Shown here piece by piece: positions 38,783-64,000 of a stretch of 64,000 bases of DNA; within the stretch, counting starts at the first letter, position 1; every line of letters begins with the position of its first letter. The position numbers and the translations under genes were made by a program. The notes beneath the pieces are model-generated. The model ran no database searches. It saw nothing but the letters and a program-made list of their open reading frames with translations, and was not told where the DNA came from. Origin of the DNA: Deroplatys truncata (lineage: Eukaryota > Arthropoda > Insecta > Mantodea > Mantidae); contig CM060990.1 in NCBI GenBank assembly GCA_030765065.1, forward strand, positions 463,930,321-463,994,320. The letters run 5' to 3'.

Positions 38783-38887
38783 GTAAGCTCTACAGATCTA
38801 AACTTTACTTTAGAAGGTAGATGACAGAGACGCGCATCTAGCCTGAACGATGCGAGATCTGGAAACGTTAGGGACATCCACCGCAAT
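38783..38887 (+). repeat. 'GCATCTAGCC / GATGCGAG' monomer subtype (example)
   Basis: Two linked changes mark this subtype: ACGCGCATCTAGCCTG (usually ACGCGCAACTAG) and AACGATGCGAG (usually AACGATCCGAG). Here it begins GTAAGCTCTACAG, another linked change. Copies lie near 265, 3730, 5725, 8570, 10250, 12030, 17810, 27170, 29800, 32630, 35690, 40625, 45150, 47040, 51560, 53140, 58710 and 60290. It is distinct from a second CATCTAG form that continues CTGGAACGATCC, as near 10670. Confidence 0.87.
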
Positions 38888-39098
38888 GCAAGCTGTACAG
38901 ATCTAAACTTTACTTTAGAAGGTAGATGACAGAGCCGCGCAACTAGCCTGAACGATCCGATATCTGGAAACGTTAGGGACATCCACCGACATGCAAGCTG
39001 TACAGATCTAAACTTTACTTTAGAAGGTAGATGACAGAGACGCGAAACCCAGTCTGAACGATCCGAGATCTGGAAACGTTAGGGACATCCACCGCAAT

Positions 39099-39203
39099 GC
39101 AAGCTGTACAGATCTAAACTTTACTATAGAAGGTAGATGACAGAGATGAGCAACTAGTCTGAACGATCCGAGATCTGGAAACGTTAGGGACATCCGCTGC
39201 AAT
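39099..39203 (+). repeat. 'CTATAGAAGG / GATGAGCAAC' monomer subtype (example)
   Basis: The variants TTTACTATAGAAGG and GACAGAGATGAGCAACTAG occur together in this monomer. It directly follows a GCGAAACCCAG 106-bp monomer and precedes a monomer reading GACAGAAACGC. The trio recurs near 15050, 18100, 23880, 27450, 30080, 32930, 35970, 45330, 51750 and 58900. The later copies have acquired TTTACTATAGTAGG. Confidence 0.87.
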
Positions 39204-42200
39204 GTAAGCTGTACAGATCTAAACTTTACCTTAGAAGGTAAATGACAGAAACGCGCAACTAGTCTGAACGATCCGAGATCTGGAACCGTTAGGGACATCC
39301 ACCGCAATGCAAGCTGTACAGATCTAAACTTTACTTTAGAAGGTAGATGACAGATTCGCGCAACCCAGTCTGAACGATCCGAGATCTGGAAACGTTAAGG
39401 ACATCCACCTTAATGCAAGCTGTACAGATCTAAACTTTACTTTAGAAGGTAGATGACAGAGATGCGCAACTAGTCTGAACGATCCGAGATCTGGAAACGT
39501 TAGGGATATCCACCGCAATGCAAGCTGTACAGGTCTAAACTTTACTTAAGATGGTAGATGAACGAGACGCGCAACAAGTCTGATCGATCCGAGATCTGGA
39601 AACGTTAGGTACATCCGCCGCAATGTATGCTGTACAGATCTAAACCTTACTTTAGAAGGTAGATGACAGAGACGCGCAACTAGCCTGAACGATCCGAGAT
39701 CTGGAAACGTTAGGGACATCCACTGCAATGGAAGCTGTACAGATCTAAACTTTACTTTAGAAGGTAGATGACAGAGACGCGCAACAAGCCTGAACGATCC
39801 GAGATCTGGAAACGTTAGGGATATCCATCGCAATGCAAGCTGTACAGATCCAAACCTTACTTTAGAAGGTAGTAGGCAGAGACGCGCAACTAGCCTGAAC
39901 CATCCGAGATCTGGAAACGTTAGGGACATCCAGCGCAATGCAAGCTGTACAGATCTAAACTTTACTTTAGAAGGTAGATGAACGAGACGCGCAACTACTC
40001 TGAACGATCCGAGATCTCGAAACGTTAGGGACATATACCGCAATGCAAGCTGTACAGATCTAAACTTTAATTTAGAAGGTAGATGAACGAGACGCGCAAC
40101 TAGTCTGAACGATCCGAGATCTCGAAACGTTAGGGACATCCGCCGCAATGTATGCTGTACAGATCTAAGCTTTACTTTAGAAGGTAGATGACAGAGACGC
40201 GCAACTAGCCTGAACGATCCGAGATCTGGAAACGTTAGGGACATCCACTGCAATGCAAGCTGTACAGATCTAATCTTTACTTTAGAAGGTAGATGACAGA
40301 GACGCGCAACTAGCCTAAAACGATCCGAGATCCGGAAACGTTAGGGACATCCACTGCAATTCAAGCTGTACAGATCTAATCTTTACTTTAGAAGGTAGAT
40401 GATCGAGACGCGCAACTAGTCTGAACGATCCGAGATCTGGAAACGTTAAGGACATTTACCGCAATGCAAGCTGTACAGATCTAAACTTTACTTTAGAAGG
40501 TAGATGACAGAGACGCGAAACCCAGTCTGAACGATCCGAGATCTGGAAACGTTAGGGACATCCGCCGCAATGTAAGCTGTACAGATCTAAACTTTACTTC
40601 AGAAGGTAGATGACAGAGACGCGCATCTAGCCTGAACGATGCGAGATCTGGAAACGTTAGGGACATCCACCGCAATGCAAGCTGTACAGATCTAAACTTT
40701 ACTTTAGAAGGTAGATGACAGAGCCGCGTAACTAGCCTGAACGATCCGAGATCTGGAAACTTTAGGGACATCCACCGCAATGCAAGCTGTACAGATCTAA
40801 ACTTTACTTTAGAAGGTAGATGACAGAGACGCGAAACCCAGTCTGAACGATCCGAGATCTGGAAACGTTAGGGACATCCACCGCAATGCAAGCTGTACAG
40901 ATCTAAACTTTACTTTAGAAGGTAGATGAACGAGACGCGCAACTAGTCTGAACGATTCGAGATCTGGAAGCGTTAGGGACATCCGCCGCAATGTATGCTG
41001 TACATATCTAAACTTTACTTTAGAAGGTAGATGACAGAGACGAGCAAATAGCCTGAACGATCCGAGATCTGGAAACGTTAGGGACATCCACTGCAATGCA
41101 AGCTGTACAGATCTAAACTTTACTTTAGAAGGTAGATGACAGAGACGCGCAACCCTGTCTGAACGATCCGAGATCTGGAAACGTTAGGGACATCCACCGC
41201 AATGCAAGCTGTACAGATCTAAACTTTACTTTTGAAGGTAGATGACAGAGATGCGCAACTAGTCTGAACGATCCGAGATCTGGAAACGTATGGGACATCC
41301 ACTGCAATGCAAGCTGTACAGATCTAAAATTTACTTTAGAAGGTAGATGACAGAGACGCGCAACTAGTCTAAATGATCCGAGATCTGGAAACCTTAGGGA
41401 CATCCACCGCAATGCAAGCTGTACAGGTCTAAACTTTTGTTTAGAAGGTAGATGACAGATACGCTCAACTAGTCTGAACGATCCCAGATCTGGAAACGTT
41501 AGGGACATCCACCGCAATGCAAGCTGTACAGATGTAAACTTTACTTTAGAAGGTAGATGACAGAGACGCGCAACTAGCCTGAACGATCCGAGATCTGGAA
41601 ACGTTAGGGACATCCACCGCAATGGAAGCTGTACAGATCTAAACTTTACTTTAGAAGGTAGATGACAGAGACGCGCAACTAGCCTGAACGATCCGAGATC
41701 TGGAACCGTTAGGGACATGCACCGCAATGCCAGCTGTACAGTTCTAAACTTTACCTTAGACGGTAGATGACAGAGACGCGCAACCCATTCTGAACAATCC
41801 GAGATCTGGAAACGTTAGGGACATCCACCGCAATGCAAGCTGTACAGATCTAAACTTTATTTTAGAAGGTAGATGACAGAGATGCGCAACTAGTCTGAAC
41901 GATCCGAGATCTGGAAACGTTAGGGACATCCACCGCAATGCAAGCTGTACAGATGTAAACTTTACTTTAGAAGGTAGATGACAGAGACGCGCAACTAGCC
42001 TGAACGATCCGAGATCTGGAAACGTTAGAGACATCCACCGCAATGGAAGCTGTACAGATCTAAACTTTACTTTAGAAGGTAGATGACAGAGCCGCGCAAC
42101 CCAGTCTGAACGATCCGAGATCTGGAAACATTAGGGACATCCACCGCAATGCAAGCTGTACAGATCTAAACTTTACTTTAGAAGGTAGTTGACAGAGATG

Positions 42201-42360
42201 CGCAACTAGTCTGAACGATCCGAGATCTGGAAACGTATGGGACATCCGCCGCAATGTAAGCTGTACAGATCTAAACCTTACTTTAGAAGGTAGATGACAG
42301 AGACGCGCAACTAGCCTGAACGATCCGAGATCTGGAAACGTTAGGGATATCCATCGCAAT

Positions 42361-42465
42361 GCAAGCTGTACAGATCCAAACCTTACTTTAGAAGGTAGTA
42401 GGCAGAGACGCGCAACTAGCCTGAACGATCCCAGATCTAGAAACGTTAGGGAAATCCGCCGCAAT
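42361..42465 (+). repeat. 'GTAGTAGGCAGAG' monomer subtype (example)
   Basis: This subtype begins GCAAGCTGTACAGATCCAAA, continues CCTTACTTTAGAAGG and then reads GTAGTAGGCAGAG instead of GTAGATGACAGAG. The preceding monomer usually ends in GATATCCATCGCAAT. The same package recurs near 2220, 3170, 7900, 14310, 16100, 18730, 21980, 25020, 28080, 33540, 37325, 39850, 43320, 46080, 48790, 52490, 55940, 59640 and 62990. It is a stable family member that marks equivalent positions in different HOR units. The copy near 62965 has a modified junction (CATCGCATCGCAAG). Confidence 0.9.
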
Positions 42466-42569
42466 GTATGCTGTACAGATCTAAACTTTATTTAGAAGGT
42501 AGACGACAGAGACGCGCAACTAGCCTGAACGATCCGAGATCTGGAAACCATAGGGACATCCACTGCAAT
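42466..42569 (+). repeat. 104-bp 'TTTATTTAG' monomer, HOR phase marker (example)
   Basis: One base is missing from the A/T-rich segment, giving AAACTTTATTTAGAAGG where the usual monomer has AAACTTTACTTTAGAAGG. The monomer is 104 bp. It is rare and recurs at about 15571, 24399, 30603, 36493, 42488, 48904, 56053 and 63097, with further copies at 53952 and 61101. It normally follows a junction reading CCGCCGCAATGTATGCTG. Its scarcity makes it a good anchor for dividing the right three quarters of the array into HOR units. The copy near 24399 carries an additional change (AAACTATATTTAG). Confidence 0.92.
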
Positions 42570-42674
42570 GCAAGCTGTACAGATCTAAACTTCATTTTAG
42601 AAGGTAGATGACAGAGACGCGCAACTAGTCTGAACGATCCGAGATCTGGAACCGTTAGGGACATCCACCGCAAT

Positions 42675-42779
42675 GCAAGCTGTACAGATCTAAACTTTAC
42701 TTTAGAAGGTAGATGAACGAGACGCGCAACTAGTCTGAACGATCCGAGATCTCGAAACGTTAGGGACATCTGCCGCAAT
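42675..42779 (+). repeat. 'GAACGAGAC' monomer subtype (example)
   Basis: This subtype reads GATGAACGAGACGCGC in place of GATGACAGAGACGCGC, a two-base swap. It is often linked to GATCTCGAAACG. It commonly ends in a CCGCCGCAAT-type junction (here CTGCCGCAAT) and is then followed by a monomer starting GTATGCTGTACA. The association is visible many times, for example near 2460, 8140, 17590, 22210, 40100 and 46500. This shows that diagnostic variants travel together across monomer borders. Confidence 0.88.
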
Positions 42780-42884
42780 GTATGCTGTACAGATCTAAAG
42801 TTTAGTTTAGAAGGTAGATGACAGATACGCTCAACTAGTCTGAACGATCCCAGATCTGGAAACGTTAGGGACATCCACCGCAAT
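42780..42884 (+). repeat. 'AAGTTTAGTTTAG / ACGCTCAAC' monomer subtype (example)
   Basis: This subtype has CTAAAGTTTAGTTTAG, GACAGATACGCTCAAC and ATCCCAGATCTGG. These changes create two dyads absent from the consensus: CTAAA-G-TTTAG, and a 10-bp perfect palindrome CCAGATCTGG at 42850-42859. Recurrences include about 1700, 7375, 13780, 17245, 21450, 23450, 26180, 31645, 37855, 44480, 49215, 50895, 56360, 58045 and 63410. A sister form has AACTTTTGTTTAG with the same right half. Confidence 0.88.
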
Positions 42885-43515
42885 GCAAGCAGTACAGATG
42901 TAAACTTTACTTTAGAAGGTAGATGACAGAGACGCGCAACTAGCCTGAACGATCCGAGATCTGGAAACGTTAGGGACATCCACAGCAATGCCAGCGGTAC
43001 AGATCTAAAGTTTACTTTAGAAGGTAGATGACAGAGACGCGCAACCCAGTCTGAACGATTCGAGATCTGGAAACGTTAGAGACATCCACCGCAACGCAAG
43101 CTGTACAGATCTAAACTTTACTTTAGAAGGTAGTTGACAGAGATGCGCAACTAGTCTGAACGATCCGAGATCTGGAAACGTTAGGGACATCCGCCGCAAT
43201 GTAAGCTGTACAGATCTAAAATTTACTTTAGAAGGTAGATGACAGAGACGCGCAACTAGCCTAAACGATCCGAGATCTGGAAACATTAGGGATATCCATC
43301 GCAATGCAAGCTGTACAGATCCAAACCTTACTTTAGAAGGTAGTAGGCAGAGACGCGCAACTAGCCTGAACGATCCGAGATCTGGAAACGTTAGGGACAT
43401 CCACTGAAATGCAAGCTGTACAGATCTAAACTTTACTTTAGAAGGTAGATGAGAGAGACGCGCAACTAGTCTTAACGTTCCGAGATCTGGAACTGTTAGG
43501 GACATCCACCGCAAT

Positions 43516-43621
43516 GCCAGCTGTACAGATCTAAACTTTACTTTAGACGGTAGATGACAGAGACGCGCAACCCAGTCTGAACGATCCGAGATCTGGAAAC
43601 GTTAGGGACATCCACCGCAAT
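43516..43621 (+). repeat. 106-bp 'CCCAG' monomer subtype (example)
   Basis: This subtype reads GCGCAACCCAGTCTG where most monomers read GCGCAACTAGTCTG, a net gain of one base, so it is 106 bp long. It recurs through the window, mostly after every third to sixth monomer. Here it carries the linked upstream changes GCCAGCTG and TTTAGACGG. Other versions are linked to GCGAAACCCAG, to GAGCCGCGCAACCCAG or to AGATACGCGCAACCCAG. In the reverse-strand open frame the extra base shifts the phase and produces a TAA 11 codons later, which is why periodic open frames end there. It is the main punctuation mark of the higher-order structure. Confidence 0.93.
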
Positions 43622-44488
43622 GCAAGCTGTACAGATCTAAACTTTACTTTAGAAGGTAGATGACAGAGATGCGCAACTAGTCTGAACGATCCGAGATCTG
43701 GAAACGTATGGGACATCCACTGCAATTCAAGCTGTACAGATCTAAACTTTACTTTAGAAGGTAGACGACAGAGACGCGCAACTAGTCTGAATGATCCGAG
43801 ATCTGGAAACGTTAGGGACATCCACCGCAATGCAAGCTGTACAGATCTAAACTTTTGTTTAGAAGGTAGATGACAGATACGCTCAACTAGTCTGAACGAT
43901 CCCAGATCTGGAAACGTTAGGGACATCCACCGCAATGCAAGCTGTACAGATGTAAACTTTACTTTAGAAGGTAGATGACAGAGACGCGCAACTAGCCTGA
44001 ACGATCCGAGATCTGGAAACGTTAGGGACATCCACCGCAATGGAAGCTGTAAAGATCTAAACTTTACTTTAGAAGGTAGATGACAGAGACGCGCAACTAG
44101 CCTGAACGATCCGAGATCTGGAACCGTTAGGGACATGCACCGCAATGCCAGCTGTACAGTTCTAAACTTTACTTTAGACGGTAGATGACAGAGACGCGCA
44201 ACCCAGTCTGAACAATCCGAGATCTGGAAACGTTAGGGACATCCACCGCAATGCAAGCTGTACAGATCTAAACTTTATTTTAGAAGGTAGATGACAGAGA
44301 TGCGCAACTAGTCTGAACGATCCGAGATCTGGAAACGTTTGGGACATCCACTGCAATGCAAGCTGTACAGATCTAAACTTTACTTTAGAAGGTAGATGAC
44401 AGAGACGCGCAACTAGTCTGAACGATCCGAGATCTGGAAACGTTAGGGACATCCACCGCAATGCAAGCTGTACAGATCTAAAGTTTAG

Positions 44489-44718
44489 TTTAGAAGGTAG
44501 ATGACAGATACGCTCAACTAGTCTGAACGATCCCAGATCTGGAAACGTTAGGGACATCCACCGCAATGCAAGCTGTACAGATGTAAACTTTACTTTAGAA
44601 GGTAGATGACAGATACGCTCAACTAGTCTGAACGATCCCAGATCTGGAAACGTTAGGGACATCCACCGCAATGCAAGCTGTACAGATGTAAACTTTACTT
44701 TAGAAGGTAGATGACAGA
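44489..44718 (+). repeat. Single-monomer tandem duplication kept in later HOR units
   Basis: The monomer with ACGCTCAAC, ATCCCAGATCTGG and ACAGATGTAAAC is present twice in a row at an offset of 105 bp. The same doublet is found at about 50905-51134 and 58054-58283. The duplication therefore preceded amplification of the C units and is inherited by each. Confidence 0.88.
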
Positions 44719-45541
44719 CACGCGCAACTAGCCTGAACGATCCGAGATCTGGAAACGTTAGAGACATACACCGCAATGGAAGCTGTACAGATCTAAACTT
44801 TACTTTAGAAGGTAGATGACAGAGCCGCGCAACCCAGTCTGAACGATCCGAGATCTGGAAACATTAGGGACATAAACCGCAATGCAAGCTGTACAAATCT
44901 AAACTTTACTTTAGAAGGTAGTTGACAGAGATGCGCAACTAGTCTGAACGATCCGAGCTCTGGAAACGTATGGGACATCCGCCGCAATGTAAGCTGTACA
45001 GATCTAAACCTTACTTTAGAAGGAAGATGACAGAGACGCGCAACTAGTCTGAACGATCCCAGATCTGGAAACGTTAGGGACATCCGCCGCAATGTAAGCT
45101 CTACAGATCTAAACTTTACTTTAGAAGGTAGATGACAGAGACGCGCATCTAGCCTGAACGATGCGAGATCTGGAAACGTTAGGGACATCCACCGCAATGC
45201 AAGCTGTACAGATCTACACTTTACTTTAGAAGGTAGATGACAGAGACGCGAAACCCAGTCTGAACGATCAGAGATCTGGAAACGTTAGGGACATCCACCG
45301 CAATGCAAGCTGTTTAGATCTAAACTTTACTATAGTAGGTAGATGACAGAGATGAGCAACTAGTCTGAACGATCCGAGATCTGGAAACGTTAGGGACATC
45401 CGCCGCAATGTAAGCTGTACAGATCTAAACTTTACTTTAGAAGGTAGATGACAGAAACGCATAACTAGTCTGAACGATCCGAGATCTGGAACCGTTAGGG
45501 ACATCCACCGCAATGCAAGCTGTACAGATCTAAACTTTACT

Positions 45542-46669
45542 TTAGAAGGTAGATGACAGATACGCGCAACCCAGTCTGAACAATCCGAGATCTGGAAACG
45601 TTAAGGACATCCACCTTAATGCAAGCTGTACAGATCTAAACTTTACTTTAGAAGGTAGATGACAGAGATGCGCAACTAGTCTGAACGATCCGAGATCTGG
45701 AAACGTTAGGGATATCCACCGCAATGCAAGCTGTACAGATCTAAACTTCACTTTAGATGGTAGATGAACGAGACGCGCAACAAGTCTGAACGATCCGAGA
45801 TCTGGAAACGTTAGGTACATCCGCCGCAATGTATGCTGTACAGATCTAAACTTTACTTTAGAAGGTAGATGACAAAGACGCGCAACTAGCCTGAACGATC
45901 CGAGATCTGGAAACGTTAGGGACATCCACTGCAATGCAAGCTGTACAGATCTAAACTTTACTTTAGAAGGTAGATGACAGAGACGCGCAACTAGCCTGAA
46001 CGATCCGAGATCTGGAAACGTTGGGGATATCCATCGCAATGCAAGCTCTACAGATCCAAACCTTACTTTAGAAGGTAGTAGGCAGAGACGCGCAACTAGC
46101 CTGAACGATCCGAGATCTGGAAACGTTAGGGACATCCAGCGCAATGGAAGCTGTACAGATCTAAACTTTACTTTAGAAGGTAGATGAACGAGACGCGCAA
46201 CAAGCCTGAACGATCCGAGATCTGGAAACGTTAGGGATATCCATCGCAATGCAAGCTGTACAGATCCAAACCTTACTTTAGAAGGTAGTAGGCAGAGACG
46301 CGCAACTAGCCTGAACCATCCGAGATCTGGAAACGTTAGGGACATCCAGCGCAATGCAAGCTGTACAGATCTAAACTTTACTTTAGAAGGTAGATGAACG
46401 AGACGCGCAACTACTCTGAACGATCCGAGATCTCGAAACGTTAGGGACATATACCGCAATGCAAGCTGTACAGATCTAAACTTTAATTTAGAAGGTAGAT
46501 GAACGAGACGCGCAACTAGTCTGAACGATCCGAGATCTCGAAACGTTAGGGACATCCGCCGCAATGTATGCTGTACAGATCTAAGCTTTACTTTAGAAGG
46601 TAGATGACAGAGACGCGCAACTAGCCTGAACGATCCGAGATCTGGAAACGTTAGGGACATCCACTGCAA
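45542..46669 (-). other. Longest periodic open frame (375 codons); not annotated as a gene
   Basis: The reverse strand is open here across about 11 monomers because none of them is 106 bp and the period of 105 is 35 codons. The translation is a 35-residue repeat with a core near MSLTFPDLGSFRLVAR followed by HLPSKVKFRSVQ. I see no similarity to a known family, no promoter, no intron signals and no non-repeat N or C terminus. The frame begins and ends only where a 106-bp monomer or a substitution changes phase. Differences between monomers alter residues freely (for example VARLCHLP, VERICHLP, VAHLCQLP), so no coding constraint is visible. I read it as a by-product of the satellite period. Confidence 0.85.
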
Positions 46670-49600
46670 TGCAAGCTGTACAGATCTAATCTTTACTTTA
46701 GAAGGTAGATGACAGAGACGCGCAACTAGCCTAAAACGATCCGAGATCCGGAAACGTTAGGGACATCCACTGCAATGCAAGCTGTACAGATCTAATCTTT
46801 ACTTTAGAAGGTAGATGATCGAGACGCGCAACTAGTCTGAACGATCCGAGATCTGGAAACGTTAGGGACATTTACCGCAATGCAAGCTGTACAGATCTAA
46901 ACTTTACTTTAGAAGGTAGATGACAGAGACGCGAAACCCAGTCTGAACGATCCGAGATCTGGAAACGTTAGGGACATCCGCCGCAATGTAAGCTGTACAG
47001 ATCTAAACTTTACTTCAGAAGGTAGATGACAGAGACGCGCATCTAGCCTGAACGATGCGAGATCTGGAAACGTTAGGGACATCCACCGCAATGCAAGCTG
47101 TACAGATCTAAACTTTACTTTAGAAGGTAGATGACAGAGCCGCGTAACTAGCCTGAACGATCCGAGATCTGGAAACTTTAGGGACATCCACCTCAATGCA
47201 AGCTGTACAGATCTAAACTTTACTTTAGAAGGTAGATGACAGAGACGCGAAACCCAGTCTGAACGATCCGAGATCTGGAAACGTTAGGGACATCCACCGC
47301 AATGCAAGCTGTACAGATCTAAACTTTACTTTAGAAGGTAGATGAACGAGACGCGCAACTAGTCTGAACGATTCGAGATCTGGAAGCGTTAGGGACATCC
47401 GCCGCAATGTATGCTGTACATATCTAAACTTTACTTTAGAAGGTAGATGACAGAGACGAGCAAATAGCCTGAACGATCCGAGATCTGGAAACGTTAGGGA
47501 CATCCACTGCAATGCAAGCTGTACAGATCTAAACTTTACTTTAGAAGGTAGATGACAGAGACGCGCAACCCTGTCTGAACGATCCGAGATCTGGAAACGT
47601 TAGGGACATCCACCGCAATGCAAGCTGTACAGATCTAAACTTTACTTTTGAAGGTAGATGACAGAGATGCGCAACTAGTCTGAACGATCCGAGATCTGGA
47701 AACGTATGGGACATCCACTGCAATGCAAGCTGTACAGATCTAAAATTTACTTTAGAAGGTAGATGACAGAGACGCGCAACTAGTCTAAATGATCCGAGAT
47801 CTGGAAACGTTAGGGACATCCACCGCAATGCAAGCTGTACAGGTCTAAACTTTTGTTTAGAAGGTAGATGACAGATACGCTCAACTAGTCTGAACGATCC
47901 CAGATCTGGAAACGTTAGGGACATCCACCGCAATGCAAGCTGTACAGATGTAAACTTTACTTTAGAAGGTAGATGACAGAGACGCGCAACTAGCCTGAAC
48001 GATCCGAGATCTGGAAACGTTAGGGACATCCACCGCAATGGAAGCTGTACAGATCTAAACTTTACTTTAGAAGGTAGATGACAGAGACGCGCAACTAGCC
48101 TGAACGATCCGAGATCTGGAACCGTTAGGGACATGCACCGCAATGCCAGCTGTACAGTTCTAAACTTTACCTTAGACGGTAGATGACAGAGACGCGCAAC
48201 CCATTCTGAACAATCCGAGATCTGGAAACGTTAGGGACATCCACCGCAATGCAAGCTGTACAGATCTAAACTTTATTTTAGAAGGTAGATGACAGAGATG
48301 CGCAACTAGTCTGAACGATCCGAGATCTGGAAACGTTAGGGACATCCACCGCAATGCAAGCTGTACAGATGTAAACTTTACTTTAGAAGGTAGATGACAG
48401 AGACGCGCAACTAGCCTGAACGATCCGAGATCTGGAAACGTTAGAGACATCCACCGCAATGGAAGCTGTACAGATCTAAACTTTACTTTAGAAGGTAGAT
48501 GACAGAGCCGCGCAACCCAGTCTGAACGATCCGAGATCTGGAAACATTAGGGACATCCACCGCAATGCAAGCTGTACAGATCTAAACTTTACTTTAGAAG
48601 GTAGTTGACAGAGATGCGCAACTAGTCTGAACGATCCGAGATCTGGAAACGTATGGGACATCCGCCGCAATGTAAGCTGTACAGATCTAAACCTTACTTT
48701 AGAAGGTAGATGACAGAGACGCGCAACTAGCCTGAACGATCCGAGATCTGGAAACGTTAGGGATATCCATCGCAATGCAAGCTGTACAGATCCAAACCTT
48801 ACTTTAGAAGGTAGTAGGCAGAGACGCGCAACTAGCCTGAACGATCCCAGATCTGGAAACGTTAGGGAAATCCGCCGCAATGTATGCTGTACAGATCTAA
48901 ACTTTATTTAGAAGGTAGACGACAGAGACGCGCAACTAGCCTGAACGATCCGAGATCTGGAAACCATAGGGACATCCACTGCAATGCAAGCTGTACAGAT
49001 CTAAACTTCATTTTAGAAGGTAGATGACAGAGACGCGCAACTAGTCTGAACGATCCGAGATCTGGAACCGTTAGGGACATCCACCGCAATGCAAGCTGTA
49101 CAGATCTAAACTTTACTTTAGAAGGTAGATGAACGAGACGCGCAACTAGTCTGAACGATCCGAGATCTCGAAACGTTAGGGACATCTGCCGCAATGTATG
49201 CTGTACAGATCTAAAGTTTAGTTTAGAAGGTAGATGACAGATACGCTCAACTAGTCTGAACGATCCCAGATCTGGAAACGTTAGGGACATCCACCGCAAT
49301 GCAAGCAGTACAGATGTAAACTTTACTTTAGAAGGTAGATGACAGAGACGCGCAACTAGCCTGAACGATCCGAGATCTGGAAACGTTAGGGACATCCACA
49401 GCAATGCCAGCGGTACAGATCTAAAGTTTACTTTAGAAGGTAGATGACAGAGACGCGCAACCCAGTCTGAACGATTCGAGATCTGGAAACGTTAGAGACA
49501 TCCACCGCAACGCAAGCTGTACAGATCTAAACTTTACTTTAGAAGGTAGTTGACAGAGATGCGCAACTAGTCTGAACGATCCGAGATCTGGAAACGTTAG

Positions 49601-52600: not shown

Positions 52601-53719
52601 TGAACGAGACGCGCAACTAGTCTGAACGATCCGAGATCTCGAAACGTTAGGGACATCCACCGCAATGCAAGCTGTACAGATCTAAACTTTACTTTAGAAG
52701 GTAGACGAACGAGACGCGCAACTAGTCTGAACGATCCGAGATCTCGAAACGTTAAGGACATCCGCCGCAATGTATGCTGTCCAGATCTAAACTTTACTTT
52801 AGAAGGTAGATGACAGAGACGCGCAACTAGCCTGAACGATCCGAGATCTGGAAACGTTAGGGACATCCACTGCAATGCAAGCTGTACAGATCTAATCTTT
52901 ACTTTAGAAGGTAGATGACAGAGACGCGCAACTAGCCTAAAACGATCCGAGATTCGGAAACGTTAAGGACATCCACTGCAATGCAAGCTGTACAGATCTA
53001 ATCTTTACTTTAGAAGGTAGATGCCAGAGACGCGCAACTAGTCTGAACGATCCGAGATCTGGAAACGTTAGGGACATTCACCGCAATGCAAGCTGTACAG
53101 ATCTAAACTTTACTTCAGAAGGTAGATGACAGAGACGCGCATCTAGCCTGAACGATGCGAGATCTGGAAACGTTAGGGACATCCACCGCAATGCAAGCTG
53201 TACAGATCTAAACTTTACATTAGTAGGTAGATGACAGAGCCGCGTAACCAGCCTGAGCGATCCGAGATCTGGAAACGTTAGGGACATCCACCGCAATGCA
53301 AGCTGTACAGATCTAAACTTTACTTTAGAAGGTAGATGACAGAGACGCGAAACCCAGTCTGAACGATCCGAGATCTGGAAACGTAAGGGACATCCACCGC
53401 AATGCAAGCTGTACAGATCTAAACTTTACTTTAGAAGGTAGATGAACGAGACGCGCAACTAGTCTGAACGATCCGAGATCTGGAAGCGTTAGGGACATCC
53501 GCCGCAATGTATGCTGTACATATCTAAACTTTACTTTAGAAGGTAGATGACAGAGACGCGCAACTAGCCTGAACGATCCGAGATCTGGAAACGTTAGGGA
53601 CATCCACTGCAATGCAAGCTGTACAGATCTAAACTTTACTTTAGAAGGTAGATGACAGAGACGCGCAACTAGTCTGAACGATCCGAGATCTGGAACCGTT
53701 AGGGACATCCACCGCAATG

Positions 53720-54585
53720 CCAGCTGTACAGATCTAAACTTTACTTTAGACGGTAGATGACAGAGACGCGCAACCCAGTCTGAACGATCCGAAATCTGGA
53801 AACGTTAGGGACATCCACCGCAAAGCAAGCTGTACAGATCTAAACTTTACTTTAGAAGGTATATGACCGAGATGCGCAACTAGTCTGAACGATCCGAGAT
53901 CTGGAAGCGTATGGGACATCCACTGCAATGCAAGCTGTACAGATCTAAACTTTATTTAGAAGGTAGATGACAGAGACGCGCAACTAGCCTGAACGATCCG
54001 AGATCTGGAAACGTTAGGGACATCCACTGCAATGCAAGCTGTACAGATCTAAACTTCACTTTAGAAGGTAGATGACAGAGACGCGCAACTAGTCTGAACG
54101 ATCCGAGATCTGGAACCGTTAGGGACATCCACCGCAATGCAAGCTGTACAGATCTAAACTCTACTTTAGAAGGTAGATGAACGAGACGCGAATCTAGTCT
54201 GAACGATCCGAGATCTCGAAACGTTAGGGACATCCGCCGAAATGTATGCTGTACAGATCTAAAGTTTAGTTTAGAAGGTAGATGACAGATACGCTCAACT
54301 AGCCTGAACGATCCCAGACCTGGAAACGTTAGGGACATCCACCGCAATGCAAGCAGTACTGATGTAAACTTTACTTTAGAAGGTAGATGACAGAGACGCG
54401 CAACTAGCCTGAACGATCCGAGATCTGGAAACGTTAGGGACATCCACTGAAATGCAAGCTGTACAGCTCTAAACTTTACTTTAGAAGGTAGATGACAGAG
54501 ACGCGCAACTAGTCTGAACGATCCGAGATCTTGAACCGTTAGGGACATCCACCGCAATGCCAGTGTACAGATCTAAACTTTACTT
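53720..54585 (+). repeat. Extra ~8-monomer segment with second 104-bp marker
   Basis: This stretch, repeated at about 60869-61734, has no counterpart between the matching segments of C1 and C2 (about 41096-41125 and 47512-47541). It includes a second TTTATTTAG monomer at 53952. Its monomer order resembles the marker region at 42488-42990, but with private changes such as CCCAGACCTGG, GCGAATCTAG and CAGCTCTAAAC. The simplest reading is insertion by unequal exchange of an older, diverged copy of the marker region before the C3/C4 duplication. Confidence 0.7.
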
Positions 54586-55360
54586 TAGACGGTAGATGAC
54601 AGAGACGCGCAACCCTGTCTGAACGATCCGAGATCTGGAAACGTTAGGGACATCCACCGCAATGCAAGCTGTACAGATCTAAACTTTACTTTTGAAGGTA
54701 GATGACAGAGATGCGCAACTAGTCTGAACGATCCGAGATCTGGAAACGTATGGGACATCCACTGCAATGCAAGCTGTACAGATCTAAAATTTACTTTAGA
54801 AGGTAGATGACAGAGACGCGCAACTAGTCTAAATGATCCGAGATCTGGAAACGTTAGGGACATCCACCGCAATGCAAGCTGTACAGATCTAAACTTTTGT
54901 TTAGAAGGTAGATGACAGATACGCTCAACTAGTCTGAACGATCCCAGATCTGGAAACGTTAGGGACATCCACCGCAATGCAAGCTGTACAGATGTAAACT
55001 TTACTTTAGAAGGTAGATGACAGAGACGCGCAACTAGCCTGAACGATCCGAGATCTGGAAACGTTAGGGACATCCACCGCAATGGAAGCTGTACAGATCT
55101 AAACTTTACTTTAGAAGGTAGATGACAGAGACGCGCAACTAGCCTGAACGATCCGAGATCTGGAACCGTTAGGGACATGCACCGCAATGCCAGCTGTACA
55201 GTTCTAAACTTTACCTTAGACGGTAGATGACAGAGACGCGCAACCCATTCTGAACAATCCGAGATCTGGAAACGTTAGGGACATCCACTGCAATGCAAGC
55301 TGTACAGATCTAAACTTTATTTTAGAAGGTAGATGACAGAGATGCGCAACTAGTCTGAAC

Positions 55361-55570
55361 GATCCGAGATCTGGAAACGTTAGGGACATCCACCGCAATG
55401 CAAGCTGTACAGATGTAAACTTTACTTTAGAAGGTACATGACAGAGACGCGCAACTAGCCTGAACGATCCGAGATCTGGAAACGTTAGGGACATCCACCG
55501 CAATGCAAGCTGTACAGATGTAAACTTTACTTTAGAAGGTAGATGACAGAGACGCGCAACTAGCCTGAAC
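55361..55570 (+). repeat. Single-monomer tandem duplication private to C3
   Basis: A monomer with ACAGATGTAAAC is doubled here, and one copy has GGTACATGACAG where the other has GGTAGATGACAG. The matching positions in C2 (about 48320) and C4 (about 62510) have it once. The boundaries are approximate. It is the only length difference I found between C3 and C4. Confidence 0.82.
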
Positions 55571-56052
55571 GATCCGAGATCTGGAAACGTTAGAGACATC
55601 CACCGCAATGGAAGCTGTACAGATCTAAACTTTACTTTAGAAGGTAGATGACAGAGCCGCGCAACCCAGTCTGAACGATCCGAGATCTGGAAACATTAGG
55701 GACATCCACCGCAATGCAAGCTGTACAGATCTAAACTTTACTTTAGAAGGTAGTTGACAGAGATGCGCAACTAGTCTGAACGATCCGAGATCTGGAAACG
55801 TATGGGACATCCGCCGCAATGTAAGCTGTACAGATCTAAACCTTACTTTAGAAGGTAGATGACAGAGACGCGCAACTAGCCTGAACGATCCGAGATCTGG
55901 AAACGTTAGGGATATCCATCGCAATGCAAGCTGTACAGATCCAAACCTTACTTTAGAAGGTAGTAGGCAGAGACGCGCAACTAGCCTGAACGATCCCAGA
56001 TCTGGAAACGTTAGGGAAATCCGCCGCAATGTATGCTGTACAGATCTAAACT

Positions 56053-59000
56053 TTATTTAGAAGGTAGACGACAGAGACGCGCAACTAGCCTGAACGATCC
56101 GAGATCTGGAAACCATAGGGACATCCACTGCAATGCAAGCTGTACAGATCTAAACTTCATTTTAGAAGGTAGATGACAGAGACGCGCAACTAGTCTGAAC
56201 GATCCGAGATCTGGAACCGTTAGGGACATCCACCGCAATGCAAGCTGTACAGATCTAAACTTTACTTTAGAAGGTAGATGAACGAGACGCGCAACTAGTC
56301 TGAACGATCCGAGATCTCGAAACGTTAGGGACATCTGCCGCAATGTATGCTGTACAGATCTAAAGTTTAGTTTAGAAGGTAGATGACAGATACGCTCAAC
56401 TAGTCTGAACGATCCCAGATCTGGAAACGTTAGGGACATCCACCGCAATGCAAGCAGTACAGATGTAAACTTTACTTTAGAAGGTAGATGACAGAGACGC
56501 GCAACTAGCCTGAACGATCCGAGATCTGGAAACGTTAGGGACATCCACAGCAATGCCAGCGGTACAGATCTAAAGTTTACTTTAGAAGGTAGATGACAGA
56601 GACGCGCAACCCAGTCTGAACGATTCGAGATCTGGAAACGTTAGAGACATCCACCGCAACGCAAGCTGTACAGATCTAAACTTTACTTTAGAAGGTAGTT
56701 GACAGAGATGCGCAACTAGTCTGAACGATCCGAGATCTGGAAACGTTAGGGACATCCGCCGCAATGTAAGCTGTACAGATCTAAAATTTACTTTAGAAGG
56801 TAGATGACAGAGACGCGCAACTAGCCTAAACGATCCGAGATCTGGAAACATTAGGGATATCCATCGCAATGCAAGCTGTACAGATCCAAACCTTACTTTA
56901 GAAGGTAGTAGGCAGAGACGCGCAACTAGCCTGAACGATCCGAGATCTGGAAACGTTAGGGACATCCACTGAAATGCAAGCTGTACAGATCTAAACTTTA
57001 CTTTAGAAGGTAGATGAGAGAGACGCGCAACTAGTCTTAACGTTCCGAGATCTGGAACTGTTAGGGACATCCACCGCAATGCCAGCTGTACAGATCTAAA
57101 CTTTACTTTAGACGGTAGATGACAGAGACGCGCAACCCAGTCTGAACGATCCGAGATCTGGAAACGTTAGGGACATCCACCGCAATGCAAGCTGTACAGA
57201 TCTAAACTTTACTTTAGAAGGTAGATGACAGAGATGCGCAACTAGTCTGAACGATCCGAGATCTGGAAACGTATGGGACATCCACTGCAATTCAAGCTGT
57301 ACAGATCTAAACTTTACTTTAGAAGGTAGACGACAGAGACGCGCAACTAGTCTGAATGATCCGAGATCTGGAAACGTTAGGGACATCCACCGCAATGCAA
57401 GCTGTACAGATCTAAACTTTTGTTTAGAAGGTAGATGACAGATACGCTCAACTAGTCTGAACGATCCCAGATCTGGAAACGTTAGGGACATCCACCGCAA
57501 TGCAAGCTGTACAGATGTAAACTTTACTTTAGAAGGTAGATGACAGAGACGCGCAACTAGCCTGAACGATCCGAGATCTGGAAACGTTAGGGACATCCAC
57601 CGCAATGGAAGCTGTACAGATCTAAACTTTACTTTAGAAGGTAGATGACAGAGACGCGCAACTAGCCTGAACGATCCGAGATCTGGAACCGTTAGGGACA
57701 TGCACCGCAATGCCAGCTGTACAGTTCTAAACTTTACTTTAGACGGTAGATGACAGAGACGCGCAACCCAGTCTGAACAATCCGAGATCTGGAAACGTTA
57801 GGGACATCCACCGCAATGCAAGCTGTACAGATCTAAACTTTATTTTAGAAGGTAGATGACAGAGATGCGCAACTAGTCTGAACGTTCCGAGATCTGGAAA
57901 CGTTTGGGACATCCACTGCAATGCAAGCTGTACAGATCTAAACTTTACTTTAGAAGGTAGATGACAGAGACGCGCAACTAGTCTGAACGATCCGAGATCT
58001 GGAAACGTTAGGGACATCCACCGCAATGCAAGCTGTACAGATCTAAAGTTTAGTTTAGAAGGTAGATGACAGATACGCTCAACTAGTCTGAACGATCCCA
58101 GATCTGGAAACGTTAGGGACATCCACCGCAATGCAAGCTGTACAGATGTAAACTTTACTTTAGAAGGTAGATGACAGATACGCTCAACTAGTCTGAACGA
58201 TCCCAGATCTGGAAACGTTAGGGACATCCACCGCAATGCAAGCTGTACAGATGTAAACTTTACTTTAGAAGGTAGATGACAGACACGCGCAACTAGCCTG
58301 AACGATCCGAGATCTGGAAACGTTAGAGACATACACCGCAATGGAAGCTGTACAGATCTAAACTTTACTTTAGAAGGTAGATGACAGAGCCGCGCAACCC
58401 AGTCTGAACGATCCGAGATCTGGAAACATTAGGGACATAAACCGCAATGCAAGCTGTACAGATCTAAACTTTACTTTAGAAGGTAGTTGACAGAGATGCG
58501 CAACTAGTCTGAACGATCCGAGCTCTGGAAACGTATGGGACATCCGCCGCAATGTAAGCTGTACAGATCTAAGCCTTACTTTAGAAGGAAGATGACAGAG
58601 ACGCGCAACTAGTCTGAACGATCCCAGATCTGGAAACGTTAGGGACATCCGCCGCAATGTAAGCTCTACAGATCTAAACTTTACTTTAGAAGGTAGATGA
58701 CAGAGACGCGCATCTAGCCTGAACGATGCGAGATCTGGAAACGTTAGGGACATCCACCGCAATGCAAGCTGTACAGATCTACACTTTACTTTAGAAGGTA
58801 GATGACAGAGACGCGAAACCCAGTCTGAACGATCAGAGATCTGGAAACGTTAGGGACATCCACCGCAATGCAAGCTGTTTAGATCTAAACTTTACTATAG
58901 TAGGTAGATGACAGAGATGAGCAACTAGTCTGAACGATCCGAGATCTGGAAACGTTAGGGACATCCGCCGCAATGTAAGCTGTACAGATCTAAACTTTAC

Positions 59001-62000
59001 TTTAGAAGGTAGATGACAGAAACGCATAACTAGTCTGAACGATCCGAGATCTGGAACCGTTAGGGACATCCACCGCAATGCAAGCTGTACAGATCTAAAC
59101 TTTACTTTAGAAGGTAGATGACAGATACGCGCAACCCAGTCTGAACAATCCGAGATCTGGAAACGTTAAGGACATCCACCTTAATGCAAGCTGTACAGAT
59201 CTAAACTTTACTTTAGAAGGTAGATGACAGAGATGCGCAACTAGTCTGAACGATCCGAGATCTGGAAACGTTAGGGATATCCACCGCAATGCAAGCTGTA
59301 CAGATCTAAACTTTACTTTAGATGGTAGATGAACGAGACGCGCAACAAGTCTGAACGATCCGAGATCTGGAAACGTTAGGTACATCCGCCGCAATGTATG
59401 CTGTACAGATCTAAACTTTACTTTAGAAGGTAGATGACAAAGACGCGCAACTAGCCTGAACGATCCGAGATCTGGAAACGTTAGGGACATCCACTGCAAT
59501 GCAAGCTGTACAGATCTAAACTTTACTTTAGAAGGTAGATGACAGAGACGCGCAACTAGCCTGAACGATCCGAGATCTGGAAACGTTGGGGATATCCATC
59601 GCAATGCAAGCTCTACAGATCCAAACCTTACTTTAGAAGGTAGTAGGCAGAGACGCGCAACTAGCCTGAACGATCCGAGATCTGGAAACGTTAGGGACAT
59701 CCAGCGCAATGCAAGCTGTACAGATCTAAACTTTACTTTAGAAGGTAGATGAACGAGACGCGCAACTAGTCTGAACGATCCGAGATCTCGAAACGTTAGG
59801 GACATCCACCGCAATGCAAGCTGTACAGATCTAAACTTTACTTTAGAAGGTAGACGAACGAGACGCGCAACTAGTCTGAACGATCCGAGATCTCGAAACG
59901 TTAAGGACATCCGCCGCAATGTATGCTGTCCAGATCTAAACTTTACTTTAGAAGGTAGATGACAGAGACGCGCAACTAGCCTGAACGATCCGAGATCTGG
60001 AAACGTTAGGGACATCCACTGCAATGCAAGCTGTACAGATCTAATCTTTACTTTAGAAGGTAGATGACAGAGACGCGCAACTAGCCTAAAACGATCCGAG
60101 ATCCGGAAACGTTAAGGACATCCACTGCAATGCAAGCTGTACAGATCTAATCTTTACTTTAGAAGGTAGATGCCAGAGACGCGCAACTAGTCTGAACGAT
60201 CCGAGATCTGGAAACGTTAGGGACATTCACCGCAATGCAAGCTGTACAGATCTAAACTTTACTTCAGAAGGTAGATGACAGAGACGCGCATCTAGCCTGA
60301 ACGATGCGAGATCTGGAAACGTTAGGGACATCCACCGCAATGCAAGCTGTACAGATCTAAACTTTACATTAGTAGGTAGATGACAGAGCCGCGTAACTAG
60401 CCTGAGCGATCCGAGATCTGGAAACGTTAGGGACATCCACCGCAATGCAAGCTGTACAGATCTAAACTTTACTTTAGAAGGTAGATGACAGAGACGCGAA
60501 ACCCAGTCTGAACGATCCGAGATCTGGAAACGTAAGGGACATCCACCGCAATGCAAGCTGTACAGATCTAAACTTTACTTTAGAAGGTAGATGAACGAGA
60601 CGCGCAACTAGTCTGAACGATCCGAGATCTGGAAGCGTTAGGGACATCCGCCGCAATGTATGCTGTACATATCTAAACTTTACTTTAGAAGGTAGATGAC
60701 AGAGACGCGCAACTAGCCTGAACGATCCGAGATCTGGAAACGTTAGGGACATCCACTGCAATGCAAGCTGTACAGATCTAAACTTTACTTTAGAAGGTAG
60801 ATGACAGAGACGCGCAACTAGTCTGAACGATCCGAGATCTGGAACCGTTAGGGACATCCACCGCAATGCCAGCTGTACAGATCTAAACTTTACTTTAGAC
60901 GGTAGATGACAGAGACGCGCAACCCAGTCTGAACGATCCGAAATCTGGAAACGTTAGGGACATCCACCGCAAAGCAAGCTGTACAGATCTAAACTTTACT
61001 TTAGAAGGTATATGACCGAGATGCGCAACTAGTCTGAACGATCCGAGATCTGGAAGCGTATGGGACATCCACTGCAATGCAAGCTGTACAGATCTAAACT
61101 TTATTTAGAAGGTAGATGACAGAGACGCGCAACTAGCCTGAACGATCCGAGATCTGGAAACGTTAGGGACATCCACTGCAATGCAAGCTGTACAGATCTA
61201 AACTTCACTTTAGAAGGTAGATGACAGAGACGCGCAACTAGTCTGAACGATCCGAGATCTGGAACCGTTAGGGACATCCACCGCAATGCAAGCTGTACAG
61301 ATCTAAACTCTACTTTAGAAGGTAGATGAACGAGACGCGAATCTAGTCTGAACGATCCGAGATCTCGAAACGTTAGGGACATCCGCCGAAATGTATGCTG
61401 TACAGATCTAAAGTTTAGTTTAGAAGGTAGATGACAGATACGCTCAACTAGCCTGAACGATCCCAGACCTGGAAACGTTAGGGACATCCACCGCAATGCA
61501 AGCAGTACTGATGTAAACTTTACTTTAGAAGGTAGATGACAGAGACGCGCAACTAGCCTGAACGATCCGAGATCTGGAAACGTTAGGGACATCCACTGAA
61601 ATGCAAGCTGTACAGCTCTAAACTTTACTTTAGAAGGTAGATGACAGAGACGCGCAACTAGTCTGAACGATCCGAGATCTTGAACCGTTAGGGACATCCA
61701 CCGCAATGCCAGTGTACAGATCTAAACTTTACTTTAGACGGTAGATGACAGAGACGCGCAACCCTGTCTGAACGATCCGAGATCTGGAAACGTTAGGGAC
61801 ATCCACCGCAATGCAAGCTGTACAGATCTAAACTTTACTTTTGAAGGTAGATGACAGAGATGCGCAACTAGTCTGAACGATCCGAGATCTGGAAACGTAT
61901 GGGACATCCACTGCAATGCAAGCTGTACAGATCTAAAATTTACTTTAGAAGGTAGATGACAGAGACGCGCAACTAGTCTAAATGATCCGAGATCTGGAAA

Positions 62001-63096
62001 CGTTAGGGACATCCACCGCAATGCAAGCTGTACAGATCTAAACTTTTGTTTAGAAGGTAGATGACAGATACGCTCAACTAGTCTGAACGATCCCAGATCT
62101 GGAAACGTTAGGGACATCCACCGCAATGCAAGCTGTACAGATGTAAACTTTACTTTAGAAGGTAGATGACAGAGACGCGCAACTAGCCTGAACGATCCGA
62201 GATCTGGAAACGTTAGGGACATCCACCGCAATGGAAGCTGTACAGATCTAAACTTTACTTTAGAAGGTAGATGACAGAGACGCGCAACTAGCCTGAACGA
62301 TCCGAGATCTGGAACCGTTAGGGACATGCACCGCAATGCCAGCTGTACAGTTCTAAACTTTACCTTAGACGGTAGATGACAGAGACGCGCAACCCATTCT
62401 GAACAATCCGAGATCTGGAAACGTTAGGGACATCCACTGCAATGCAAGCTGTACAGATCTAAACTTTATTTTAGAAGGTAGATGACAGAGATGCGCAACT
62501 AGTCTGAACGATCCGAGATCTGGAAACGTTAGGGACATCCACCGCAATGCAAGCTGTACAGATGTAAACTTTACTTTAGAAGGTAGATGACAGAGACGCG
62601 CAACTAGCCTGAACGATCCGAGATCTGGAAACGTTAGAGACATCCACCGCAATGGAAGCTGTACAGATCTAAACTTTACTTTAGAAGGTAGATGACAGAG
62701 CCGCGCAACCCAGTCTGAACGATCCGAGATCTGGAAACATTAGGGACATCCACCGCAATGCAAGCTGTACAGATCTAAACTTTACTTTAGAAGGTAGTTG
62801 ACAGAGATGCGCAACTAGTCTGAACGATCCGAGATCTGGAAACGTATGGGACATCCGCCGCAATGTAAGCTGTACAGATCTAAACCTTACTTTAGAAGGT
62901 AGATGACAGAGACGCGCAACTAGCCTGAACGATCCGAGATCTGGAAACGTTAGGGATATCCATCGCATCGCAAGCTGTACAGATCCAAACCTTACTTTAG
63001 AAGGTAGTAGGCAGAGACGCGCAACTAGCCTGAACGATCCCAGATCTGGAAACGTTAGGGAAATCCGCCGCAATGTATGCTGTACAGATCTAAACT
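56053..63096 (+). repeat. HOR unit C4 (7,044 bp)
   Basis: This is an almost exact copy of C3. The length difference of 105 bp is explained by the single monomer duplicated near 55361-55570 in C3 and not here. Visible base differences from C3 are very few, for example GATCCGGAAACG near 60110 against GATTCGGAAACG near 52951, and AACTAGCC near 60396 against AACCAGCC near 53247. The extra 0.87-kb stretch and second marker monomer (61101) are retained. Confidence 0.88.
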
Positions 63097-64000
63097 TTAT
63101 TTAGAAGGTAGACGACAGAGACGCGCAACTAGCCTGAACGATCCGAGATCTGGAAACCATAGGGACATCCACTGCAATGCAAGCTGTACAGATCTAAACT
63201 TCATTTTAGAAGGTAGATGACAGAGACGCGCAACTAGTCTGAACGATCCGAGATCTGGAACCGTTAGGGACATCCACCGCAATGCAAGCTGTACAGATCT
63301 AAACTTTACTTTAGAAGGTAGATGAACGAGACGCGCAACTAGTCTGAACGATCCGAGATCTCGAAACGTTAGGGACATCTGCCGCAATGTATGCTGTACA
63401 GATCTAAAGTTTAGTTTAGAAGGTAGATGACAGATACGCTCAACTAGTCTGAACGATCCCAGATCTGGAAACGTTAGGGACATCCACCGCAATGCAAGCA
63501 GTACAGATGTAAACTTTACTTTAGAAGGTAGATGACAGAGACGCGCAACTAGCCTGAACGATCCGAGATCTGGAAACGTTAGGGACATCCACAGCAATGC
63601 CAGCGGTACAGATCTAAAGTTTACTTTAGAAGGTAGATGACAGAGACGCGCAACCCAGTCTGAACGATCCGAGATCTGGAAACGTTAGAGACATCCACCG
63701 CAACGCAAGCTGTACAGATCTAAACTTTACTTTAGAAGGTAGTTGACAGAGATGCGCAACTAGTCTGAACGATCCGAGATCTGGAAACGTTAGGGACATC
63801 CGCCGCAATGTAAGCTGTACAGATCTAAAATTTACTTTAGAAGGTAGATGACAGAGACGCGCAACTAGCCTAAACGATCCGAGATCTGGAAACATTAGGG
63901 ATATCCATCGCAATGCAAGCTGTACAGATCCAAACCTTACTTTAGAAGGTAGTAGGCAGAGACGCGCAACTAGCCTGAACGATCCGAGATCTGGAAACGT
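63097..64000 (+). repeat. HOR unit C5, partial at window edge
   Basis: This stretch repeats 56053-56956 at +7,044 bp as far as the window reaches. It has at least one difference, GATCCGAG near 63667 against GATTCGAG near 56623. The array is cut by the window, not ended, since the last bases are mid-monomer. Confidence 0.85.

Follow-up and report, generated by a model that had tools for sequence, protein, structure and literature searches.

A half-megabase satellite, very probably grown inside an arm of a single foldback-type DNA transposon with Maverick-like ends, in Deroplatys truncata

Introduction

Satellites are usually met after their origin has been erased. In alpha-satellite-style higher-order repeats (HORs), diverged monomers are arranged in multi-kb blocks that are far more alike than the monomers themselves. 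The locus described here, a 64-kb stretch of DNA (called the window) and its surroundings on a 707-Mb contig (C16), shares with such HORs the diverged monomers and the much more similar multi-kb blocks, but its blocks are unequal, few and local and no array-wide period was seen.

The closest precedent appears to be Tetris, a foldback transposon of Drosophila virilis that is linked to the TIR-220 satellite (Dias et al., 2014; PMC4079207). As described there, Tetris is a nonautonomous foldback-type element with variable internal tandem repeats in its inverted arms, and amplification within the element gives rise to long arrays. In fibre-FISH, long arrays lay between two terminal domains; unequal crossing-over was proposed, and disruption of the element was suggested as a possible outcome of amplification. 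The family of our study likewise has tandem units inside long inverted arms, their number varying across 24 paired arms (1 to ~4,535), and element arm sequence lies on both sides of the long array (seen for the focal array only). In Tetris the units are ~220 bp, the target duplications 8-10 bp and the longest assembled arrays 66 copies (PMC4079207), whereas the focal element has 105-bp units, 6-bp target duplications, Maverick-like ends and ~4,535 units, and its two ends, together with the target duplication, are located with single-base precision.

Vertebrate Maverick elements are reported to carry 6-bp target site duplications, the end motif (AGT)2//(ACT)2 or (AG)3//(CT)3 and inverted terminal repeats, which measure 46-1,447 bp in intact vertebrate Maverick/Polinton elements (PMC8097293). 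Duplication length and inverted terminal repeats are shared with the element studied here, as is the (AGT)2//(ACT)2 motif in three of the five copies read (the focal one among them); the element differs from that description by ~5-kb arms even without an array, by tandem units and by having yielded no core gene. A Maverick- or Polinton-derived satellite was not encountered in the literature searched, including the available text of two 2025 reviews (PMC12628747, PMC12692304), which is no proof of absence.

Results

Position and bounds of the array

The whole window consists of a 105-bp satellite and belongs to an array of ~477 kb and ~4,535 units. This array forms the repeat block in the right arm of one inverted-repeat transposon, located at 464 of 707 Mb on C16. 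Nine-digit positions refer to this contig and all others to the window, continued beyond 64000 into the adjoining sequence.

1..64000, + strand: 105-bp satellite, ~609 head-to-tail monomers, part of the ~477-kb array in the right arm
C16:463728925 to ~464205978, + strand: right-arm array of the focal transposon
463715213-463719609, - strand: left-arm array, 42 units (41.8)

Self-BLAST of the window was dominated by the 105-bp register. The window gave no Rfam match at gathering scores, and a 50-mer had no exact match among bacterial and archaeal contigs. Three nuclear COX1 copies in the genome are open in the invertebrate mitochondrial code, which points to an invertebrate.

The inner edge of the array (C16:463728925) lies within the element's inner flank and the outer edge (~464205978) within its outer flank. 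Between these edges the window and all ten sampled 10-kb stretches were wholly satellite on the + strand; 165,503 of the 477,053 array bases were read, and continuity elsewhere rests on the samples. The element spans 493,401 bp. Its inner arms flank a loop of ~1.95 kb and are 98.7% identical over 4,060 bp (the last ~376 bp being array), whereas identity of the focal inner arm is 95.4% to the C6 element copy and 95.8% to the C11 element copy. The outer arms agree at 1365 of 1430 positions (95.5%), a value that is not unique: identity is 95.7% in one 254-bp piece of another copy, against 87-94% in the remaining main pieces. Each end carries an exact copy of a 36-bp terminal motif (463713920 on the - strand, 464207229 on the + strand), and a 6-bp target duplication with one mismatch (GACAAT/GACAGT) encloses the entire 493 kb. 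Target duplications were read for five elements: three match at 6/6 positions, one of them (TACGTA) being a palindrome, and two, including the focal element, at 5/6. Inner and outer arm identity, the terminal motifs and the target duplication led us to reject two unrelated elements at the array ends.

The array also carries variants of its own. A C inserted after monomer column 56 was found in 248 of 1,579 array monomers and in 8/8 array samples, and in neither the left arm (0/41) nor other copies (0/194). The substitutions A45C (11.6% of array monomers), A84C (10.1%), A34C (6.8%) and A4C (6.3%) were likewise absent from the left arm and other copies. Membership of the array in a transposon was beyond the view of the original prediction, which had proposed a recently amplified HOR in the right part of the window.

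Block copies in the right part of the window

That prediction placed recurring segments at 41125, 47541, 54585 and 61734, and the matching offsets confirm this recurrence. Blocks were compared by global alignment, and sequence to the right of the window was also taken in.

41125..47540, + strand: C2; first 5,163 bp (41125-46287) common with C3 with 15 substitutions, the rest aligning poorly
47541..54584, + strand: C3; 7,044 bp, 67 units
54585..61733, + strand: C4; 7,149 bp, 68 units, equal to C3 plus one 105-bp unit at 55355-55459
61734..64000, + strand: start of C5, which runs to 69723 outside the window; 7,990 bp, with a 946-bp (9-unit) insert
69724-~74189, beyond the window: C6, directly after C5
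77.1-81.2 kb, beyond the window: C7, a more diverged remnant

At an offset of 6416, 39401-46522 matches 45817-52938; at 7149, 48167-55598 matches 55316-62747; and at 7990, 57098-66199 matches 65088-74189. Outside the part common to C2 and C3, their alignment needs gaps and 75 further substitutions. C3 and C4 differ by 5 substitutions in 7,044 bp and the extra unit at 55355, C4 and C5 by 6 substitutions in 7,044 bp and by 105-bp and 946-bp indels, and C3 and C5 by 11 substitutions. Since C3-C5 are 99.8-99.9% identical to one another and monomers of the same block average only 91.6%, this likeness is not due to chance. Site patterns across C2, C3, C4 and C5 in the common 5,163 bp were 0111 at 15 sites, 0011 at three and 0001 at five, free of conflicts. 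Recent local amplification, the near-identity of C3 and C4 and the nested order C2 then (C3, C4) had all been predicted and are borne out by these comparisons. With C7 included as an outgroup over 3,921 bp, four of the 22 variable sites put it with C4/C5 or with C5. The exchange period is 7,149 bp (68 units), and 7,044 bp falls short of this period by the single unit that C4 gained. Within the 104 kb read without a break, the most recent burst is C2-C6. As anticipated, the youngest part continues past base 64000: C5 and C6 carry it ~10 kb further, to ~74.2 kb, where it stops.

Duplications elsewhere in the array

An independent block duplication with a period of 5,469 bp (52 units) lies in the left part of the window:

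25259..29663, + strand: first copy
30728..35132, + strand: second copy

In its core (25604-29300) the copies differ by 10 substitutions over 3,697 bp and are as close as C2/C3. In the 13 kb read past 81 kb, the order is shuffled again and shorter duplications occur at offsets of 5255, 5148, 4520 and 3994, some with 99.8-100% identity in their best 1,052-bp stretches. Monomer identity to the consensus is flat along the 477-kb array (0.948-0.957 in 8/8 samples). With this flat divergence, an equally young left-hand pair and a run that stops before reshuffled sequence, the proposed age gradient is rejected for the array, and extension into the adjacent sequence did not reveal a homogeneous core in the parts of the array read. 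The HOR label fits loosely: multi-kb block copies exist, but their lengths are uneven (61, 68 and 76 units) and mean identity at these lags is only 0.923-0.924 versus 0.9175 over lags 1-99. A single regular multimer period was found neither in the 104-kb block nor in six 10-kb samples, and a regular HOR period was discarded on these lag identities and unequal lengths. Taking young blocks to mark the border of a homogeneous core can thus mislead.

Unit number across the family

Arms of the family are built from a block of 105-bp units between an outer part (~1.3 kb to the terminus) and an inner part (~3.7 kb in the focal copy), both conserved; the arms measure ~5 kb even without an array. Among 24 paired arms, seven have one unit (94-95 bp), fifteen have ~2-25, the focal left arm has 41.8 and the focal right arm ~4,535. 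Direct reading confirmed the single unit in 5/5 arms fetched. At least two other long arrays are present on C16, around 98.64-98.85 and 378.73-378.75 Mb.

Ends and gene content

In the focal element, the ends (AGTAGT...ACTACT) and the 6-bp duplication are like those of Maverick/Polinton. ACTACT stands at both ends in three of five copies, the focal one included; the other two have CCTACT/CCTACT and TATACT/CCTACT. A scan of the three longer ORFs of the element gave no Pfam family over cut-off, core Maverick genes (protein-primed polymerase, integrase, ATPase, capsid) included. A 143-aa ORF matched neither a Pfam family above cut-off (best E 0.21) nor a PHROG, and viral contigs yielded no confirmed relative; its best PDB match, complement C3 (E 0.03), was taken as chance. 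DNA polymerase B matches were scored for 76 of 11,882 candidates, and among those listed none lay, by eye, inside the listed terminal-motif pairs. A search for an adenovirus-type protease, run without a positive control, was empty, and no autonomous partner emerged from these comparisons. Judged by its ends only, the element is Maverick-like, and we do not file it as a member of Maverick/Polinton.

Discussion

The satellite array to which the window belongs very probably arose by growth in one arm of a single foldback-type DNA transposon whose ends resemble those of Maverick/Polinton. Growth would have proceeded after insertion of the element, with many-unit blocks (52, 61, 68 and 76 units observed) duplicated by unequal exchange in register or by a replication-based process, and with further gains of 1 or 9 units, in events spread over different places and times. 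Because the focal element yielded no gene for a transposase, polymerase or capsid, we infer rather than observe its Maverick-type mobilisation.

The half-megabase length, the ~105-bp units, the young block copies of several kb and the presence of at least two further long arrays on this contig would also suit an ordinary chromosomal (e.g. centromeric) satellite with a recent HOR core, transposons having captured it later or inserted at its edges. We regard this as very unlikely: the array is bordered by inner arm sequence of the element itself at one edge and by its outer arm sequence at the other, the inner arms resemble each other more than they do the two other copies compared, exact terminal motifs and the target duplication enclose everything, arms elsewhere carry short arrays or one unit, and an array-wide homogeneous core was not seen. 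Slightly less credible still is mis-assembly of a shorter repeat as the source of the array length or of the near-identical C3-C6. Arrays with blocks as alike as these are error-prone, but the blocks have their own substitutions and unit-sized indels, in a conflict-free pattern in C2-C5, and the array-private insertion recurs in 8/8 samples over ~475 kb.

Growth within one transposon arm is compatible with a further alternative that concerns classification only, namely that the element comes from another inverted-repeat superfamily with 6-bp target duplications. We hold this to be a real but minority possibility. The ORFs scanned without a Pfam family, the DNA polymerase B matches listed outside the listed motif pairs (by eye) and the empty protease search (no positive control) speak for it; AGTAGT//ACTACT on both sides in three of five copies, which is the end motif given for vertebrate Mavericks, and duplications of at least 5/6 in all five copies, at the Maverick length, speak against it (PMC8097293).

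For the growth of the array within the transposon arm, we give roughly even odds to a wider reading: one Maverick-like insertion, its two arms matching at first, would have become a 493-kb element as a half-megabase satellite developed from one of them, and the genome would keep graded arms from one unit up, so that the birth of a satellite could be followed stepwise. The family may seed such arrays, mainly on one 707-Mb chromosome. Reference states are provided elsewhere by arms with a single unit or a short array, although single-unit arms could be contractions instead of the seed state. Satellite growth can be read directly from the focal element, with the founder, its termini, the target duplication and a hundredfold arm difference all readable at one locus, and comparison of the two arms within one insertion can therefore be used to test how, and at which sites, tandem arrays begin to expand.

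The array lies in one arm of a single inverted-repeat transposon

The window, located at C16:463930321-463994320 on contig CM060990.1 (called C16; 707 Mb of a 4.29-Gb assembly), is a single unbroken 105-bp satellite of 609 monomers with a mean identity to the consensus of 95.4%. A 50-base probe (≤3 mismatches) matched the genome 4,751 times in forward and 3,628 times in reverse orientation, the reverse matches suggesting more long arrays on the minus strand. Matches occurred on contigs C1, C3, C6, C7, C11 and C12, where several among those listed are inverted pairs of short clusters. The flanks of short arrays are common to different loci (roughly 86-98% identity in longer pieces), and the copies on contigs C11 and C6 have long inverted arms with the satellite inside. 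The same architecture, in which each arm runs from an outer part through satellite units to an inner part, is found around the window (C16 coordinates):

463713892-464207292, focal element, 493,401 bp
about 9.3 kb left of the giant array, partner array of 4.4 kb in opposite orientation
463728925, start of the giant array, straight from the inner flank
463930321-463994320, + strand, window
464205978, junction of the giant array with the outer flank

The bounds of the element follow from its ends. In five element copies the arm-shared sequence stops at the identical base, 28 bases past the last base of the terminal motif, and a 6-bp target duplication lies directly beyond. The duplication is exact in three of the five (TACGTA, TATGTG and GAGGCA, the first being weaker evidence because it is a palindrome) and matches at 5/6 positions, read by eye from the ends, in the other two, including the focal copy (GACAAT/GACAGT); the chance of a match of at least 5/6 at one site is 19/4096. 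The terminal motif is present without mismatch at both element ends. Outside the focal termini (L067/L068), the flanks are 75% alike in inverted orientation over about 239 bp.

Over 1,430 bp the focal outer arms show 95.5% identity, but the main parts of pieces from other copies are 87-96% identical to the left outer arm, so that the outer arms alone are no proof of kinship. As judged from sequence identity, the inner arms are the stronger evidence: they agree with each other at 98.7% over 4,060 bp, about 3.7 kb of which lies beyond the array, and enclose a loop of about 1.95 kb, whereas their identity to the C6 and C11 copies is 95.4% and 95.8%.

Arm lengths across copies

Pairing 54 listed inner junctions with 100 of 339 outer junctions gave 24 paired arms, from junction lists that favour low-mismatch sites and with the long arrays at C16:98.64 and 378.7 Mb absent from the pairs. 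Seven arms carry one 94-95-bp unit (five were read directly, all confirmed) and fifteen about 2 to 25. The focal element has 41.8 units in its left arm and about 4,535 in its right, a copy number which is that of the assembly. The single-unit arms could be either seeds or contractions, as both fit.

A second long plus-strand array at C16:98.641-98.8466 Mb (L027, L028, L082, L083) showed satellite in all four pieces sampled, with an exact outer junction at 98846556 and a length of about 205 kb if continuous. At C16:378.725-378.750 Mb, minus-strand satellite was present in both pieces sampled about 24 kb apart (L035 and L085, the latter matching at 80% ungapped over 60 bases), and the piece at 378.700 (L084) was without satellite. 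C16 makes up 16.5% of the assembly. By eye, it carries 61 of 96 exact outer-junction sites and, for comparison, 38 of the 150 best matches to a 143-aa ORF.

Block amplification is recent and nested among blocks C2-C5

All offsets of at least 300 bp were scanned over 104 kb of unbroken sequence (the window with 10 kb on its left and 30 kb on its right; positions beyond 64000 lie to its right). The predicted repeats were recovered at offsets of 6416 (39401-46522), 7149 (48167-55598) and 7990 (57098-66199). Among the successive blocks starting at 41125 (blocks C2 to C6), substitutions were few:

Pairwise substitutions between satellite blocks
C2/C3: 15 across the common 5,163 bp
C3/C4: 5 per 7,044 bp
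C4/C5: 6 per 7,044 bp
C3/C5: 11 per 7,044 bp
C5/C6: 5 over 4,466 bp (part of C6 used)

Whole-unit indels among C3-C5 comprise 105 bp in C4 and 946 bp in C5; the latter insert is identical to sequence at 72200 in C6 and hence common to both blocks. The original prediction of a nested order, C2 followed by C3 and C4, was borne out by the site patterns of C2-C5 over 5,163 bp (15, 3 and 5, with zero conflicts). With the diverged remnant at 77.1-81.2 kb (block C7) as outgroup, 3,921 bp held 22 variable sites: 9 only in C7, 4 setting C2 apart from the rest, 3 only in C5, 2 joining C3-C5 against C2 and C7, 3 joining C4, C5 and C7 against C2 and C3, all within the first 705 bp, and 1 joining C5 and C7. 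The sites grouping C7 with C4/C5 or with C5 point to a mosaic history of the block starts. The boundary originally assigned to the blocks falls within this mosaic zone; exchange between the blocks has a period of 7,149 bp.

Growth was local and scattered along the array

The age gradient also predicted did not hold. The youngest part does continue beyond the window, and the young run stops at about 74.2 kb in window coordinates. From 81 to 94 kb, the limit of the sequence read, the units are once more in shuffled order and include other short duplications, of which some are near-identical as well. On the left side, the segment 25604-29300 and the copy lying 5,469 bp further on show 10 differences over 3,697 bp, a divergence like that of C2/C3, and monomer identity to the consensus stays at 0.948-0.957 in eight samples from the inner edge of the array to about 1.7 kb before its outer edge. 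By these comparisons, amplification bursts are local and scattered along the array, of which 165,503 of 477,053 bases were read.

Of 1,579 array monomers (about a dozen counted twice, as two samples overlap), 248 have a C inserted after column 56. The insertion is present in all eight array samples, compared with 0/194 monomers of other copies and 0/41 of the left arm. Four substitutions, each at 6-12%, are likewise private to the array, and column 61 is 66% T in the array as against 78% C in the left arm and 76% C in other copies. The right arm thus appears to have expanded out of its own subset of variants. In-register indels and duplications of 52-76-unit blocks point to unequal exchange or replication-based block copying as the probable mechanism. 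The growth of the right focal arm exceeded that of the left about a hundredfold.

Relation to known elements

ACTACT is present at both ends in three of the five copies; these ends and the 6-bp duplications match those given for Mavericks in PMC8097293. No Maverick core gene was found in three scanned element ORFs, and none of the polymerase B matches, for which 76 of 11,882 candidates were scored, lay, by eye, inside listed terminal-motif pairs. We therefore describe the element as Maverick-like by its sequence ends only, without classing it as a Maverick.

Polymerase-bearing elements are abundant in the genome: DNA polymerase B matches number at least 152, and many of them lie in open frames longer than 1,200 aa. 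Both element arms contain the 143-aa ORF (e.g. L038:5350-5778), which matched no known family; among 7,405 first-look candidates genome-wide, the best 150 are 94-100% identical, many in facing pairs, and all listed but one are without internal stops. Nuclear COX1 matches are also many: scoring 96 of 991 candidates gave 99 matches, which on C16 cluster near 193-195, 611, 638 and 672 Mb.

The route from element to satellite works alike here and in Tetris (PMC4079207).
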